Origin: Butyricicoccus faecihominis
GTDB taxonomy: Bacteria > Bacillota > Clostridia > Oscillospirales > Butyricicoccaceae
DNA: 59,530 nt
NCBI RefSeq assembly: GCF_024462775.1
Contig: NZ_JANGCE010000024.1
Span: 1 to 59,530 of the forward strand
Reading direction: 5' to 3'
This document shows positions 7,648 to 13,226 of this stretch, one piece after another. Every line of letters starts with the position of its first letter. Position 1 is the stretch's first letter. The position numbers and the translations under genes were made by a program. The notes beneath the pieces were generated by a model. The model made no database searches, was not told the origin of the DNA, and was given only the letters and a program-made list of their open reading frames with translations.

Positions 7648-9054
7648 TTATTCGGTTTGACACGTTGTTTCCACTTTTTCCGGCTTCTTATAGGGCAGTT
7701 CCACGGTGCTGATAAAGCTTTCGCTGCACGGGCTGTTTGCCATTACCACGCGCACAGAAAAGATACCATTTTCATACTTGGCGTCAAACGCGCCGTTATG
7801 CTTGTGCGCCATTTGCGACAACTGCCGCAGGCCGACGCCATGAAACGGGCCTTTCTTCGTACTGCGAAAGCGATATTTCTTCGCCGGTATTGGCGCGATC
7901 TCGCTGGGATTGTCGCAGAGAACACCGAAAAAGTATCCCTTTTGCTTGAGCACCAGACGGATGCGCCGGTTTTCCGGGTCTTTATTCTTTTCGCAAGCCT
8001 CAATCGCGTTATCCAGTACGTTAAACAAGACGGTGCATAAATCGGCCGTGGGCACATGCATCGGATTGGGATACCATATTTCGGCACTGATACGGATACC
8101 GCTTTCCAGCGCGCGAGAAAATTTTGCGTTCACCAGCGCGGCAACCGTGGGGTCGCGCACTTCTATCCACTGCCTTGTGGATAACGGTTCGGAATCAGCC
8201 ATTTCTTTCAAATACTTTTTAATTTCCTCCAGTCTGCCCTCTTCGGCCAGCGTGCCCAACACTTGCATATGATTTTTAAAGTCGTGCCGTATCGCACGTG
8301 ATTTTTCATAAAGCGAGCGTATGGTTTTGCTCTGTTCCTCTCGCTGGTCTGCTCGCAACAACTCGCTTTGAAGTTTATATTCTCGTTCATTACCACGAGA
8401 CATATTGATTAGTAGCGCCAACATGATAATTAGCTGTAATGCAAATACAATAGGTAAAATAGGCGCAATATGATGCATCCAAAGCGGATCATCGTTTTGG
8501 GAATAGGAAAATGCAGTAACAAAACTTGCTAGCAGTGTAATGCCTGCGCCGAAACACACCCATTGAGACGCATGTAGATAGCGCTGTTCTCCTACCCCAG
8601 CTTTTCGATAAATAGTATAAATTGCGCTACCTAGTAATAGGTATAACAATCCGCGCGATTCCAGTGTACCATAAATTTGAAAGAAGGATGTTCCCAAAAC
8701 GCTCTCCGTCGTGACACTAGGATAGAAAAGAGCTAGGACAAATGTCGCTGTGCTTTCACAAAGGTATAACAATCCAAAATAAATCGCTGGTAAGCAAAAC
8801 GATATTCCAAAACGATGGTTTGACAGAATATAGCATGTAACGATATCAATAATAAAAGCCACTAATGATTTAATTAAATACGGTACGGGAGTAAAACTAA
8901 GAATTAGTGTTGGAAACAAATTAATAGCAAGAAGTACTAGTATTTGTGATCGAGTTAGATTTTTCCCAAACGGTCTTAGTACTATATAGTATAGTAGACA
9001 AGAAAGGAATACATCTCCGAAGGAGGAAACCACAGATAAAATCGATTCCAGCAT
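7648..9054 (-). CDS. AgrC-like sensor histidine kinase (GHKL family)
   Basis: A 468-residue kinase. The first half has six or seven hydrophobic helices (about residues 5-225), the AgrC-type peptide sensor. The linker is helical. The H-box reads IRHDFKNHMQVL (phospho-acceptor His near residue 257), the N-box VLFNVLDNAIEAC and the G-box region FHGVGLRQL. This HxxxNH plus HATPase_c_5 layout is the quorum-sensing kinase class. I use the ATG at 9054, which has GAGGG 5 bases upstream; a GTG at 9066, overlapping the regulator stop, lacks a site. It is co-transcribed after the LytTR regulator and faces an AgrD-like gene. AgrC itself binds a thiolactone peptide. Confidence 0.88.
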   Translation of the reverse strand: MLESILSVVSSFGDVFLSCLLYYIVLRPFGKNLTRSQILVLLAINLFPTLILSFTPVPYLIKSLVAFIIDIVTCYILSNHRFGISFCLPAIYFGLLYLCESTATFVLALFYPSVTTESVLGTSFFQIYGTLESRGLLYLLLGSAIYTIYRKAGVGEQRYLHASQWVCFGAGITLLASFVTAFSYSQNDDPLWMHHIAPILPIVFALQLIIMLALLINMSRGNEREYKLQSELLRADQREEQSKTIRSLYEKSRAIRHDFKNHMQVLGTLAEEGRLEEIKKYLKEMADSEPLSTRQWIEVRDPTVAALVNAKFSRALESGIRISAEIWYPNPMHVPTADLCTVLFNVLDNAIEACEKNKDPENRRIRLVLKQKGYFFGVLCDNPSEIAPIPAKKYRFRSTKKGPFHGVGLRQLSQMAHKHNGAFDAKYENGIFSVRVVMANSPCSESFISTVELPYKKPEKVETTCQTE

Positions 9055-9062
9055 GTTGTCCC

Positions 9063-9761
9063 TCACATATCTGTCAATGCAGCTTTTACATTGTCTGCAA
9101 AACCACGGCTTACCGGTACTTTCTTTCCGTTATTCATGCAAAGCCCCTGCACTTCACATGAGCAAATGCTATTGCGATTCACAAGATAAGAACGATGGCA
9201 CTGTATAAATTGATTTTTCGGCACCTCGTTTACAAAATCCGCGAATTTTTTGCGGTATTTGATCATGCCGTTCTTCGTATAAATGTGGCAGTAATGTTCG
9301 GCCGCTTCGATAAATATCACATCGCAGTAGTGAATTAATATTTTCTTTCCCTTCTGGGCAAGAATAACGATCTCCTGTGATTTTGTCTCAGCCAGACCGG
9401 CAGCGTGTTCCAAGCAAGGCATGCAATCCTCTTTCCCAATCGGCTTGAGTAAATACCGGTACGCTTGAACGGTATACCCCTCAACCGAATAGGATTCATG
9501 GTTTGTGGTAAAGACGATCGGCGTGCGCCCGGTCACCTTACGAATGCGCCGCGCCGTGTCGATTCCGTTTTCCTCTTTCGTTTCAATATCCAGAAAGAAT
9601 AGATCGGCCCAAAGGATATCGTCCTCCTCTATTTCCGACCCATCGGCAAAGGTGCGAAAGACTGTAAGCATTTGCAATTCTTCCGCTGTCCTTTTGATTG
9701 TTTTCTGCGTTTGTTCCATGGTAATCGGCTCGTCCTCGACCAGCGCAATATGTAAAACCAT
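9063..9761 (-). CDS. LytTR-family response regulator (AgrA-like)
   Basis: A 232-residue protein. The receiver domain has the acidic pair in VEDEP (residues 9-11), phospho-acceptor Asp58 in FFLDIE, a Thr/Asn switch in FTTNHE and Lys in LLKPIGK. The C-terminal LytTR domain (about 130-230) includes FIEAAEHYCHIYT and QCHRSYLVN. LytTR proteins bind pairs of short direct repeats spaced about two helical turns; such a pair occurs in the promoter of the divergent agrD-like gene. A GAGGG site precedes the ATG. It is first in the regulator-kinase unit. Confidence 0.9.
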   Translation of the reverse strand: MVLHIALVEDEPITMEQTQKTIKRTAEELQMLTVFRTFADGSEIEEDDILWADLFFLDIETKEENGIDTARRIRKVTGRTPIVFTTNHESYSVEGYTVQAYRYLLKPIGKEDCMPCLEHAAGLAETKSQEIVILAQKGKKILIHYCDVIFIEAAEHYCHIYTKNGMIKYRKKFADFVNEVPKNQFIQCHRSYLVNRNSICSCEVQGLCMNNGKKVPVSRGFADNVKAALTDM

Positions 9762-9780
9762 ATTTTCACTTCCCTCTTTG

Positions 9781-9848
9781 CAATTCGTGCCTATTCCCCT
9801 TCAATTCATGCCAGTTATCTTGTTATTTATATCCCAATCTTTTATACT
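9781..9848 (+). promoter_or_regulatory. agrD-like promoter with paired direct repeats (putative LytTR operator)
   Basis: CAATTCGTGCC (9781-9791) and CAATTCATGCC (9802-9812) are 11-base repeats with one mismatch, 21 bases start to start. They are followed by TTGTTA (9820-9825), a 17-base spacer and TATACT (9843-9848). Paired repeats two turns apart, directly upstream of a weak -35, are how AgrA/LytTR activators bind. They lie between the regulator gene and the peptide gene. Confidence 0.65.
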
Positions 9849-9897
9849 TAATTATAGCCCAAGAGCGCGGAATTTTCAAACTATGGAGGGTATTATT

Positions 9898-10038
9898 ATG
9901 AAAAATAAAAAAATTTGGCTAAAGCAGCTTCTGATGTCCGCCGCCACCACGATCAGCATGTTCGCCATTTTCATGAGCAAAATGCCTTGTGAAGGAAAAT
10001 TTTATCAGCCCGAAGTACCGGAGCAGCTCCGCAAGTGA
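9898..10038 (+). CDS. agrD: AgrD-like cyclic autoinducer prepeptide, 46 residues
   Basis: The 46-residue product has a basic amphipathic leader (MKNKKIWLKQLLMSAATT), a hydrophobic stretch, then PCEGKFYQPEVPEQLRK. This matches the AgrD plan: leader, a Cys-starting core of five residues, and an acidic QPEVPxxLR tail that AgrB removes. By analogy with clostridial AgrD the thiolactone ring would be Cys31-Glu-Gly-Lys-Phe35, unusual for having two charged residues. The start has GGAGGG 6 bases upstream. It is divergent from the LytTR regulator and AgrC-like kinase. No agrB is present in the window, so processing must rely on a distant AgrB or another peptidase. Confidence 0.82.
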   Translation: MKNKKIWLKQLLMSAATTISMFAIFMSKMPCEGKFYQPEVPEQLRK

Positions 10039-10087
10039 TCTAAAACCACGTTTTTTTCACCTGCACAGAACTTTTTCTTGCATTTAT

Positions 10088-10119
10088 AAAAAGCTTCTCT
10101 TCCATCAGAGAGGCTTTTT
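10088..10119 (+). terminator. Terminator after the agrD-like gene
   Basis: AAAAAGCTTCTCT-TCCATC-AGAGAGGCTTTTTG: an imperfect stem with an A/T base and a closing run of five Ts. It separates the peptide gene from the rplJ promoter. Confidence 0.75.
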
Positions 10120-10160
10120 GTTATGTTTCGCAATTATTCCATAAAGTTTTCGTTTTTGAC

Positions 10161-10189
10161 TTGACAAACGCGTCCCCACTCTATATAAT
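10161..10189 (+). promoter_or_regulatory. Consensus SigA promoter for rplJ-rplL
   Basis: TTGACA (10161-10166), a 17-base spacer and TATAAT (10184-10189), a full consensus match fitting a ribosomal protein gene. The start should be near 10196, at the 5' end of the L10 leader. Confidence 0.9.
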
Positions 10190-10195
10190 ATAAGA

Positions 10196-10333
10196 GCTTG
10201 GTCAGAGACAGCTGGCAGCCGCAAGGCTTAAAAGGCGATTACGCCGCCCGCCGAGGTCAACACGGAACTGTATCATCATGTTATCTGTGTACCCTCCCTG
10301 TGTCTTTGCACCGGGAGGGTATTTTTATTTTTT
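10196..10333 (+). ncRNA. L10 ribosomal protein leader with attenuator
   Basis: The leader runs from the promoter to the rplJ ribosome site. It contains the conserved GACAGCTGGCAGCC ... CCGCCGAGGTCAAC arrangement and the TGTGTCTTTGCACC loop. ACCCTCCC (10291-10298) and GGGAGGGT (10313-10320) form a stem followed by ATTTTTATTTTTT, a terminator. The layout matches the Firmicutes L10 leader, bound by the L10(L12)4 complex to set rplJ-rplL expression. Confidence 0.8.
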
Positions 10334-10348
10334 AGGAGGTGAATATAG

Positions 10349-10939
10349 ATGCCGAATGCAAAGGTTCTGGAAGAAAAGAAAGCAATGGTTGCGAACCTGG
10401 TCGAAAAGATCAAGAATTCCCCCGCTGGCGTTCTGGTCGACTACAAGGGCATCAATGTTGAGGACGACACCAAGCTCCGCCGTGAGCTGCGCGCCGCTGG
10501 CGTTGATTATGCTGTAATCAAGAACACCCTGATTCGCTTCGCCGCCAAGGAGCTCGGTTTCGATGCGCTCGATGAGCACCTGAACGGTACGTCCGCTTTG
10601 GCTATCTCGACGACGGACGACGTGATCGCCCCCGCCAAGATTCTGGGCGACTTCGCCAAGAAGCACGAAAACTTCACGATCAAGGCCGGTTTCCTCGATG
10701 GCGCCGTTGTTGACGCAGCCGAGGTACAGAAGCTCGCAAGCATGCCGAGCAAGGAAGTCCTGATCGCGCAGGTGCTGTACTCCTTCAACTATCCCATCAT
10801 GCAGCTTGCTATCGCGTGCGACGCGATCGTCAAGAAGGCCGATGGCAACATGGATATGAAGGTTTCCGACCTGCTTGCCCCCGCAGCCGCTCCCGTAGCT
10901 GCTGAAGCTTCCGCTGAGGAAGCACCCGCTGCTGAATAA
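10349..10939 (+). CDS. rplJ: 50S ribosomal protein L10
   Basis: A 196-residue L10. The N-terminal rRNA-binding half reads VLEEKKAMVANLVEKIKNSP and VDYKGINVEDDTKLRRELR, with the conserved YAVIKNTL and FAKKHENFTIKAG blocks. The C-terminal helix binds L12 dimers and ends in an Ala/Glu tail. AGGAGGT precedes the ATG and an L10 leader stands before it. It lies 44 bases upstream of rplL. The tail after about residue 172 is low-complexity, common in the family. Confidence 0.96.
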   Translation: MPNAKVLEEKKAMVANLVEKIKNSPAGVLVDYKGINVEDDTKLRRELRAAGVDYAVIKNTLIRFAAKELGFDALDEHLNGTSALAISTTDDVIAPAKILGDFAKKHENFTIKAGFLDGAVVDAAEVQKLASMPSKEVLIAQVLYSFNYPIMQLAIACDAIVKKADGNMDMKVSDLLAPAAAPVAAEASAEEAPAAE

Positions 10940-10983
10940 GCAGAAAACAAAAATAAATTTAAAACAAAACGGAGGTATATCCC

Positions 10984-11358
10984 ATGTCTGTTGCTGAGAT
11001 TATGGAAGCTGTAAAAGAGCTCAAGGTAATGGAGCTCTCCGAGCTGGTTAAGGCTCTGGAAGAAGAATTTGGCGTTTCCGCTACGCCCGTAGCTGTTGCC
11101 GGTGCCGGCGCAGGTGCTGGTGACGGCGCTGCCGCTGCCGAAGCCAAGACCGATTTCGACGTCGTTCTGGTTGAAGCTGGTTCCTCGAAAATCAACGTTA
11201 TCAAGGTTGTTCGCGAGATCACCGGTCTGGGCCTGAAGGAAGCGAAGGAGAAGGTTGACACCGCTCCGCAGACGATCAAGGAAGGCGCTGCTGAGGCAGA
11301 GGCCAACGAGATCAAGGAGAAGCTCGAGGCTGCCGGCGCGAAGGTCGAACTCAAGTAA
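10984..11358 (+). CDS. rplL: 50S ribosomal protein L7/L12
   Basis: A 124-residue L12: N-terminal dimerisation domain ([20 protein letters not shown]), an Ala/Gly-rich hinge (about 40-55) and the C-terminal factor-binding domain ([32 protein letters not shown]). It recruits translational GTPases. GGAGG lies upstream. A terminator follows at once; rpoB, the common next gene, is not here. Confidence 0.97.
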
Positions 11359-11371
11359 TTTTTCCGCTTTT

Positions 11372-11416
11372 AAAAGACGTGCTGCAAATGATTTTGCGGC
11401 GCGTCTTTTCTTTTTG
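11372..11416 (+). terminator. Terminator after rplL
   Basis: AAAAGACGTGCTGCAAA-TGAT-TTTGCGGCGCGTCTTTT with two mismatched pairs, followed by CTTTTTG. It ends the rplJ-rplL transcript. Confidence 0.85.
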
Positions 11417-11454
11417 CCCATTTTCCTGTACAATAGAAATATCTATACCGTATT

Positions 11455-11521
11455 GTCATTCCGTGAAACCGCAAGGCGGACTTTGCCCGCCCGTTATTGG
11501 CACGCAAACCGGAAATGACAT
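11455..11521. repeat. Small inverted-repeat segment before pyrK
   Basis: TGTCATTCCG at the left and CGGAAATGACA at the right form imperfect inverted ends around about 45 bases. The ends resemble the TGTCATTC termini of the dispersed repeats at 4388 and 47211, but the interior differs. It may be a related or decayed element. Confidence 0.4.
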
Positions 11522-11550
11522 GGCGCTACACCGAAAGGGGAATCTTTTTT

Positions 11551-12312
11551 ATGACCAATCCGGAAGTCGGTACCGTCGCCCAGTGTTCGCGTCTGGCCGA
11601 TGGCTTGTATCAGCTTGTCATTCACGCGCCCGAGATCGCTTCGCGCGCGAAATGCGGGCAATTCGTTCATATTTTATGCGGCGAGGGCAACTTCCTCCGC
11701 CGCCCGATCTCTATTTGCGATGTCGACGCACCGCGCCTGCGCATTGTGTTTCAGGTCAAGGGCGAAGGCACCAAATGGCTGTCCGAGCGCAAGGCGGAGG
11801 ACAAACTCGACCTGCTTGGCCCGCGCGGCCGTGGGTTCGACCTTGCCAAGCTGGGCGCAAAGCCGGTATTCATCGGCGGCGGCATCGGCGTACCGCCCAT
11901 GCTGTACGCGACAAAGTGCGCCCAGAACGCGGGCGCGAAACCGAGCGCTATCTTAGGCTTCCGCTCGCAAAGCGCCGTTATTCTTGAAGAGGACTTTGCC
12001 TGCCCCGCCACCGTCTGCACGGACGATGGCTCCTACGGCGTACACGGCTTTGTATCCGACGTTTTAAAGCAACAGGCGGCGGGTTTTACGGGCATTGCCG
12101 CCTGCGGCCCCAAGCCGATGCTGAAAGCGATCGCCGCGATCGCGCAGCAAGCGGGTCTGCCCTGTCAGGTATCCATGGAAGAGCGCATGGGCTGCGGTAT
12201 CGGCGCATGTCTGGTATGCGCCTGCGCGCTGAACGCGGAAAACGGCGAGACCCGGTACGGCCACGTTTGCAAGGACGGCCCGGTATTTGACGCAGAGGAG
12301 GTGCAGTGGTAA
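11551..12312 (+). CDS. pyrK: Dihydroorotate dehydrogenase B, electron-transfer subunit PyrK
   Basis: A 253-residue FAD/[2Fe-2S] protein that passes electrons from PyrD to NAD+. It shows a ferredoxin-reductase-like FAD domain (FLRRPISICDVD), the NAD-binding block PVFIGGGIGVPPML, and the C-terminal iron-sulfur cysteines in MGCGIGACLVCACA and HVCKDGPVF. I take the ATG at 11551 with AAGGGG upstream; an upstream in-frame extension has no family similarity. Its stop overlaps the pyrD start by one base, so the two subunits are translationally coupled. Confidence 0.93.
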   Translation: MTNPEVGTVAQCSRLADGLYQLVIHAPEIASRAKCGQFVHILCGEGNFLRRPISICDVDAPRLRIVFQVKGEGTKWLSERKAEDKLDLLGPRGRGFDLAKLGAKPVFIGGGIGVPPMLYATKCAQNAGAKPSAILGFRSQSAVILEEDFACPATVCTDDGSYGVHGFVSDVLKQQAAGFTGIAACGPKPMLKAIAAIAQQAGLPCQVSMEERMGCGIGACLVCACALNAENGETRYGHVCKDGPVFDAEEVQW

Positions 12313-13226
12313 TGGTGGATATGACGGTAGACCTGTGCGGCGTTACCCTGAAAAACCCGGTGACCACCGCCTCCGGCACTTTTGGCTTCGGCCATGAGTA
12401 CGGCGAATTCTTTGACCTGTCCGCGCTTGGCGGCATCGGCGTAAAGGGCCTGACCCCGCACGAGCGGCTTGGAAACCCCGCGCCCCGCATCGCGGAAACG
12501 CCCATGGGCATTTTAAACTGCGTCGGCCTGCAAAACCCCGGCGTAGACCGCTTTATCGAAGAGCAAATCCCCTTTTTGCGCCAGCATGATACCAAGATCA
12601 TCGCCAACGTATCAGGCAATACGGTGGAGGAGTACGCCGGGATCGTGGAACGCATTTCCGAAGCGGATATTGATTTGATCGAGCTGAACATCTCCTGCCC
12701 GAACGTGAAATGCGGCGGTCTGGCCTTTGGCACGCGCACCGATATGGTGACCGAGGTCGTTTCCGCGGCGAAAAAACATGCAAAGAGGCCGCTGATCGTC
12801 AAACTCAGTCCCAACGTGACCGATATTGCCGAAATCGCGCGCGCCGCCGTGGACGCGGGCGCGGACGCGCTTTCGCTAATCAATACCCTGCTGGGCATGC
12901 GCATCGACATCGAAACGAAAAAGCCCATCCTCTCCAACGTGATGGGCGGCCTGTCCGGCCCGGCGGTGTTCCCGATCGCGGTGCGTATGGTCTATCAAGT
13001 GCGCCGCGCGGTCTCCGTACCGATCATCGGCATGGGCGGCATCCGCACCGGGCGTGACGCGGTGGAAATGCTCATGGCGGGCGCGGACGCAATCGCCGTG
13101 GGCACCGCCCTGTTCGCCGATCCCCTCGCCCCTGTGCATGTGCTGGAAGAGATGCAGGAATGGATGGAAGCGCACGGCGTGCGCTCTGTACGCGAATTGA
13201 CCGGCGCGGTAGAGGTGAACGCATGA
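12312..13226 (+). CDS. pyrD: Dihydroorotate dehydrogenase B, catalytic subunit PyrD
   Basis: A 304-residue class 1B enzyme with FMN-binding TIM-barrel motifs: NPVTTASGTFGFG, the LNISCPNVKCGG segment containing the catalytic Cys loop, KLSPNVTDI, GLSGPAV and the closing GMGGIRTG and MAGADAIAVGTALF. It oxidises dihydroorotate to orotate in the cytoplasm. I chose the ATG at 12312, with AGGAGG 10 bases upstream; the GTG at 12306 is too close to that site. Its stop overlaps the next start (ATGA). Confidence 0.95.
   Translation: MVDMTVDLCGVTLKNPVTTASGTFGFGHEYGEFFDLSALGGIGVKGLTPHERLGNPAPRIAETPMGILNCVGLQNPGVDRFIEEQIPFLRQHDTKIIANVSGNTVEEYAGIVERISEADIDLIELNISCPNVKCGGLAFGTRTDMVTEVVSAAKKHAKRPLIVKLSPNVTDIAEIARAAVDAGADALSLINTLLGMRIDIETKKPILSNVMGGLSGPAVFPIAVRMVYQVRRAVSVPIIGMGGIRTGRDAVEMLMAGADAIAVGTALFADPLAPVHVLEEMQEWMEAHGVRSVRELTGAVEVNA

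Follow-up and report, generated by a model that had tools for sequence, protein, structure and literature searches.

An agrD-type autoinducer precursor gene of Butyricicoccus faecihominis probably belongs to a split agr system, in which a remote AgrB, most likely the one encoded on contig C28, matures the precursor and the neighbouring kinase senses the peptide. The gene is located in the window, which is the whole of contig C17 (59,530 bases) of the host genome G000 (3.69 Mb, 56 contigs). It is adjoined by an AgrC-type kinase and an AgrA-type LytTR regulator, and the agrB genes of the host genome are unlinked to it. The same split is present in a one-contig genome of the species and in another genus, and peptide and sensor are hypervariable between strains. 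The coordinates of the features are given in Table 1.

Table 1. Features at the agrD locus of the window, with the basis of each assignment
Feature	Coordinates	Strand	Basis
GHKL histidine kinase of 472 aa, candidate AgrC-like receptor	7648..9066	-	PF14501 51.6 bits; NF046015 AgrC 61.3 bits, below the 500-bit equivalog cut-off
Hypervariable sensor half of kinase, residues 1-240	8347..9066	-	228/720 bases differ between G000 and G060; rest of kinase gene 15/699
LytTR response regulator, AgrA-like	9063..9761	-	PF04397 74.6 bits, PF00072 48 bits; NF046049 AgrA 41 bits, below the 400-bit equivalog cut-off
Promoter-like TTGTTA-17-TATACT 5' of agrD	9820..9848	+	9/12, consensus match only
Promoter-like TTGAAA-17-TATAAT 5' of divergent regulator-kinase operon	9851..9879	-	11/12, consensus match only
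Ribosome-binding site GGAGGG	9885..9890	+	Read from sequence
agrD-type precursor gene, 46 aa	9898..10038	+	ORF reading, AgrD model match, frame kept in two strains (dN/dS 0.09)
Predicted five-residue ring codons C-E-G-K-F	9988..10002	+	Alignment of five members; ring size by analogy with known AIPs
C-terminal tail YQPEVPEQLRK, presumably recognised by AgrB	10003..10035	+	YQPxVP invariant in 5/5 subfamily members
Terminator-like hairpin 3' of agrD	10086..10121	+	Weak: 1 found, 0.7 expected

The 46-residue precursor, MKNKKIWLKQLLMSAATTISMFAIFMSKMPCEGKFYQPEVPEQLRK, was read from the ATG at 9898 to the TGA at 10038 on the plus strand, and comparison with an alignment of five members gave an architecture of a hydrophobic N-terminal part, a Cys core, and a Pro-x-x-Pro tail. 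Against the NCBIfam AgrD model TIGR04223 it scored 19.4 bits (cut-off 19, E 9e-4), and in the whole-genome scan the same frame scored 17.7 bits, below that cut-off; no match to Pfam was obtained. The match was nevertheless judged to be more than chance because the frame is kept in the same-species genome G060 at a dN/dS of 0.09 and the G060 allele scored 31.6 bits against the model. The sequence-only reading of this DNA had proposed an AgrD-like peptide with a Cys core and an acidic tail, and would have given this up had the frame not been conserved; the TIGR04223 match and the coding constraint bear the proposal out, and the frame is retained in G060 with a subfamily relative in another genus. 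The ORF is confirmed as a real AgrD-type autoinducer precursor, for which a thiolactone ring and export are predicted. The gene is probably transcribed alone. Promoter-like sites in the stretch numbered 4 against 1.8 expected (sd 1.6), and sites of the promoter- and terminator-like kinds that flank agrD occur scarcely more often than shuffled sequence would give. Searches from which near records were possibly left out returned no confirmed match to the AgrD query in viral_contigs or genome_contigs and none to the AgrB query in genome_contigs.

The combination of a negative and a positive residue in the ring had been regarded as unusual, a view that the rings of relatives do not sustain. These vary among CDGQF (same species), CLGQY (paralogue), and CAGKY (relative in another genus), and AgrDs of other families that have an adjacent AgrB likewise carry Lys or Arg as the fourth ring residue (CLGRY in locus L118, CLGKF in L120). 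An acidic residue directly after the Cys is described for S. aureus AIP-1 and AIP-3 in an excerpt of PMC3673130. The acidic and basic residues together in one ring are an allele of this strain, and special ring chemistry was rejected on the strain alleles and the rings of relatives.

The regulator and kinase genes are divergent from agrD and had not been mentioned in the earlier reading; neither protein reaches the equivalog cut-off of its staphylococcal counterpart, AgrC or AgrA. Six hydrophobic stretches were located within residues 12-220 of the kinase. The exported peptide would be sensed by this AgrC-like kinase, which would phosphorylate the adjacent LytTR regulator and thereby act on presumed target genes. 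Visual inspection of the upstream sequences revealed no convincing shared regulator site.

The claim that no agrB is nearby holds for all 59,530 bases of the window, where no match to AgrB (PF04647) was found. Three matches were obtained elsewhere in G000, on contigs C23, C8, and C28, and none on C17 or C54, so the absence of AgrB from the whole genome, which would have told against the peptide, is not the case. The earlier supposition of a distant or different enzyme stands as to distance, C28 being the likeliest candidate, and nothing found requires a different kind of enzyme. That the peptide is processed by an enzyme with no relation to AgrB, or acts in linear form, we consider hardly probable at all: the Cys core and the YQPxVP tail argue against it, as does the co-occurrence of an AgrB from the right family, and in its favour there is nothing direct, the absence of a linked agrB alone pointing that way.

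The C23 and C8 AgrBs score well above the cut-off and are each paired with their own AgrD (cores SCNGLYQPEVPQQLKR and TCWFTSYQPEEPDMD, respectively). The C28 AgrB (113 bits against PF04647, cut-off 23) is encoded by the last gene of a regulator-kinase-agrB operon, and shares the motif GGYHA.TP.RC with the AgrB of G079, a genome of another genus in the same family; the motif includes His71 and Cys78, which we take, by S. aureus AgrB, to be the catalytic residues. A hidden agrD beside the C28 agrB was looked for and not found: no AgrD match was obtained on contig C28 by profile scan, none in the 10-kb C28 locus by motif scan, and none in a six-frame reading of the 360 bases upstream of the C28 regulator. 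A second orphan AgrD is encoded on contig C54, 52% identical to that of the window, with the ring CLGQY and divergent from its own regulator-kinase pair. With the C17 and C28 proteins as queries, the regulators and kinases of C17, C54, C28, and G079 were 35-45% identical and those of the AgrD-linked loci C23 and C8 21-29%. The window precursor would be cut after its ring, probably C-E-G-K-F, and closed to the thiolactone by an unlinked AgrB, most likely that of C28, which probably also matures the C54 precursor and would thus be a fixed maturation hub for satellite peptide-receptor modules, each free to change specificity. Secreted-looking proteins of ~180-240 aa adjoin three agr-like loci (L011 1840-2553, L001 627-1223, and L031 9766-10311); they matched no Pfam family above cut-off and are possible regulated outputs.

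Genome G060, of the same species, consists of one contig of 4.0 Mb and carries the window-type AgrD at position 244,596, the C28-type AgrB at 373,475, and the C54-type AgrD at 1,715,301. The C28-type agrB is therefore not linked to either gene, lying 129 kb from the window-type AgrD and 1.34 Mb from the C54-type AgrD, and an assembly gap does not account for the split, as this one-contig genome holds the same loci far apart. In G079 there is a single AgrB, in regulator-kinase-agrB order, and a single AgrD at the level of the cut-off (18.6 bits by itself and 19.5 when its neighbours in the frame are included), which belongs to the window subfamily; neither a regulator-kinase pair nor AgrB adjoins it, and 505 kb of the same contig separate it from the AgrB. 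These two genomes bear on the alternative that the C23 or C8 AgrB matures the window precursor and that the C28 operon does something else. The own AgrDs of those enzymes have similar tails, that of C23 (YQPEVPQQLKR) being close to the window tail (YQPEVPEQLRK), and both enzymes exceed the cut-off comfortably; in G079, however, a C28-type AgrB is the only one accompanying an AgrD of this subfamily, and G060, which retains both orphan AgrDs, has a truncated C8-type AgrB. We regard this alternative as unlikely. In G060, locus L044 (6165-6626) has the C8-type AgrB beside a CWFTSYQPEEPDMD AgrD without its N-terminal part (match from model position 66), which is present in G000.

Among 394 genomes of the order, the closest AgrBs to that of C28 were 100, 99, and 50% identical (the last in G079) and the next 36%; some AgrB was found at E 1e-10 in 31 of the 394. 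The AgrD subfamily (E 0.001) and a C28-like kinase (E 1e-30) were each present in 3 of 87 genomes of the family, and G000, G060, and G079 were the three genomes in the AgrD-subfamily, kinase, and closest-AgrB searches alike. As G000 and G060 are one species, the co-occurrence of this AgrD with a C28-type AgrB amounts to about two independent lineages. The AgrD profile matched 4 of the 394 genomes of the order; the fourth match (G289, 21.5 bits) was dropped because the opposite strand has an overlapping frame of 927 aa. In a class-wide sample, 5 of 391 genomes besides the host genome were matched, all more weakly (at most 41.7 bits), and an AgrB-like frame adjoins four of these five AgrDs.

Comparison of 10 kb between G000 and G060 gave differences of at most 3% in nearly all 150-base bins (1 of 1010 bases in rplJ-rplL), with two islands of divergence, one comprising the sensor half of the kinase and the adjoining end of the regulator gene, the other AgrD. 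In AgrD, 16 of 141 bases are changed, 11 of these falling within the final 63 coding bases, with 4, 0, and 12 changes at codon positions 1, 2, and 3 (dN 0.051, dS 0.574, ratio 0.09), and the ring passes from CEGKF in G000 to CDGQF in G060. The flanks differ at 0 of 136 bases between the regulator and AgrD and at 2 of 310 downstream (Fisher p 6e-9 for AgrD against these flanks). The paired hypervariable islands are an indirect sign that the neighbouring kinase may be the receptor activated by the peptide. They also weigh on the idea that the window agrD is a decaying remnant of a once complete agr locus from which no signal is made. The missing agrB beside agrD and a family score at the cut-off would suit a remnant; islands placed so precisely in peptide and sensor would not, nor would the low dN/dS, the frame, start, and ribosome site intact in two strains, or the intact orphan relative in another genus, and we hold decay to be highly improbable.

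The unlinked enzyme hardly varies between the same strains, the C28 AgrB being 99.5% and the C28 kinase 99.3% identical, whereas the AgrD-linked C23 AgrB is 88% identical and the C23 kinase, across residues 81-240 of the frame that was compared, about 50-62%. The C54 AgrD has a dN/dS of 0.26 and the same ring in both strains, yet the first 120 residues of its kinase are only 60-80% identical; a sensor that varies while the ring is constant is a misfit with strict pairing of ring and receptor. From the end of the C54 agrD onward (L031 about 9650-12500, compared with L040), ~40-50% of bases differ, with no homology in the compared 2.8 kb, and the small secreted-looking proteins downstream differ per strain, as if the C54 AgrD bordered a strain-specific cassette.

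The frequency of AgrD without AgrB was assessed in two surveys. The first was biased to AgrB carriers, 28 of its 29 genomes having been chosen for an AgrB match, and covered the loci of 30 of 42 matches plus five further loci; an AgrB-like frame was present within a locus of roughly 2-3 kb in 33 of these 35 (29/30 and 4/5). By-hand comparison in 28 comparison genomes placed an AgrD match, one of them below cut-off, within about 2.2 kb of 31 of 33 AgrBs, and the two remaining AgrBs (G037, G403) lie near contig ends. The second survey gave 22 AgrD matches in the window's family at E 0.005, a threshold under which the window and G079 AgrDs fell and were not counted; three were subfamily members, all without AgrB. 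Among the 19 others, AgrB was present in the fetched locus of 12, five of which also belong to the AgrB-biased set, and absent from seven, at least two of these being cut by contig ends and two being neighbouring copies in one place. An orphan AgrD is therefore not unique to the window, a notion that was rejected on these 7 of 19.

In three of the 12 AgrB-linked family loci (L133, L135, and L136) a single open frame gives both the AgrB and the AgrD match, the AgrB match being weak in L133. In L135 (1486-2208, G085) and L136 (1486-2019, G061) an AgrB-like protein runs into an AgrD-like end (..SACRNWSYQPEITASLRKYMDN and ..GVTCIWNYQPEMPAEVSKYLSK), so that two genomes of the family seem to have AgrB fused to AgrD, although L136 is cut by a contig end; L133 (1270-1605, G008) is a 111-codon frame with an apparent AgrB start joined to an AgrD end, the AgrB middle being absent. 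Repeated, very similar AgrDs with the rings CMLFM, CMLFV, and CMFIA were found in G081, G078, and G031 (L131, L138, L139, L137, and L130), with small proteins around them and no AgrB in the fetched stretch; two of the matches span one TAA. Outside the family, the AgrDs of L119 (G737, CFWLFYQPKTP..) and L093 (G289, CYFWFNQPKMP..) likewise had no AgrB in the fetched stretch.

Several considerations count against the split system. Two further AgrBs, those of C23 and C8, each with its own AgrD, could act instead; the co-occurrence comes from a single species, represented by two strains, and one other genus; the AgrD scores no better than about the cut-off; and the family has many orphan AgrDs of other kinds (7 of 19).

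As in S. aureus agrBDCA, there are an AgrD precursor, an AgrC-type kinase, and a LytTR regulator; here, in contrast, agrB is unlinked and hardly varies between two strains, agrD is divergent from the regulator-kinase pair, and the regulator precedes the kinase. The strain groups of S. aureus rest on polymorphism of AgrB, AgrD, and AgrC, according to an excerpt of PMC8919982. For C. autoethanogenum, the portion of PMC8748961 consulted describes an agr System 2 (agrD2-agrC2) without agrB, proposed to use the only AgrB of the genome, agrB1 of System 1; in both cases an agrD-kinase locus without agrB is assigned to a remote AgrB on genome content, and a shared remote AgrB had therefore already been suggested. 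By the same portion, the AgrB locus of C. autoethanogenum has its own agrD and agrA is absent from both loci, whereas here the AgrB operon has a full regulator-kinase pair and no agrD was found in it, and two satellite loci each have a regulator and a kinase. C. perfringens is similar in that separate system names are given to the peptide genes, agrBD, and to the sensor, VirSR (PMC7492741 and PMC3673130, in excerpt); its agrB and agrD are treated there as a pair, whereas here agrB is apart from agrD and adjoining kinase. Literature searches limited to open-access papers turned up no description of an AgrB operon that has a kinase and a regulator, lacks AgrD, and serves satellite loci.

A further reading, to which we give an even chance, is that this signal-less AgrB-kinase-regulator operon matures several unlinked peptides, each with a private receptor, the maturase being frozen while strain-specific signal and receptor pairs diversify. 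The AgrB would stay frozen because it is freed from co-evolution with one substrate. If this is right, agr systems would be separable, with maturation a shared service and specificity evolving only in signal and receptor, and the two strains would provide a natural setting in which to test why AgrB and AgrD co-vary, the C23 AgrB being 88% and the C28 AgrB 99.5% identical between them. It would also mean that searches based on loci can overlook signals with an agrB elsewhere.
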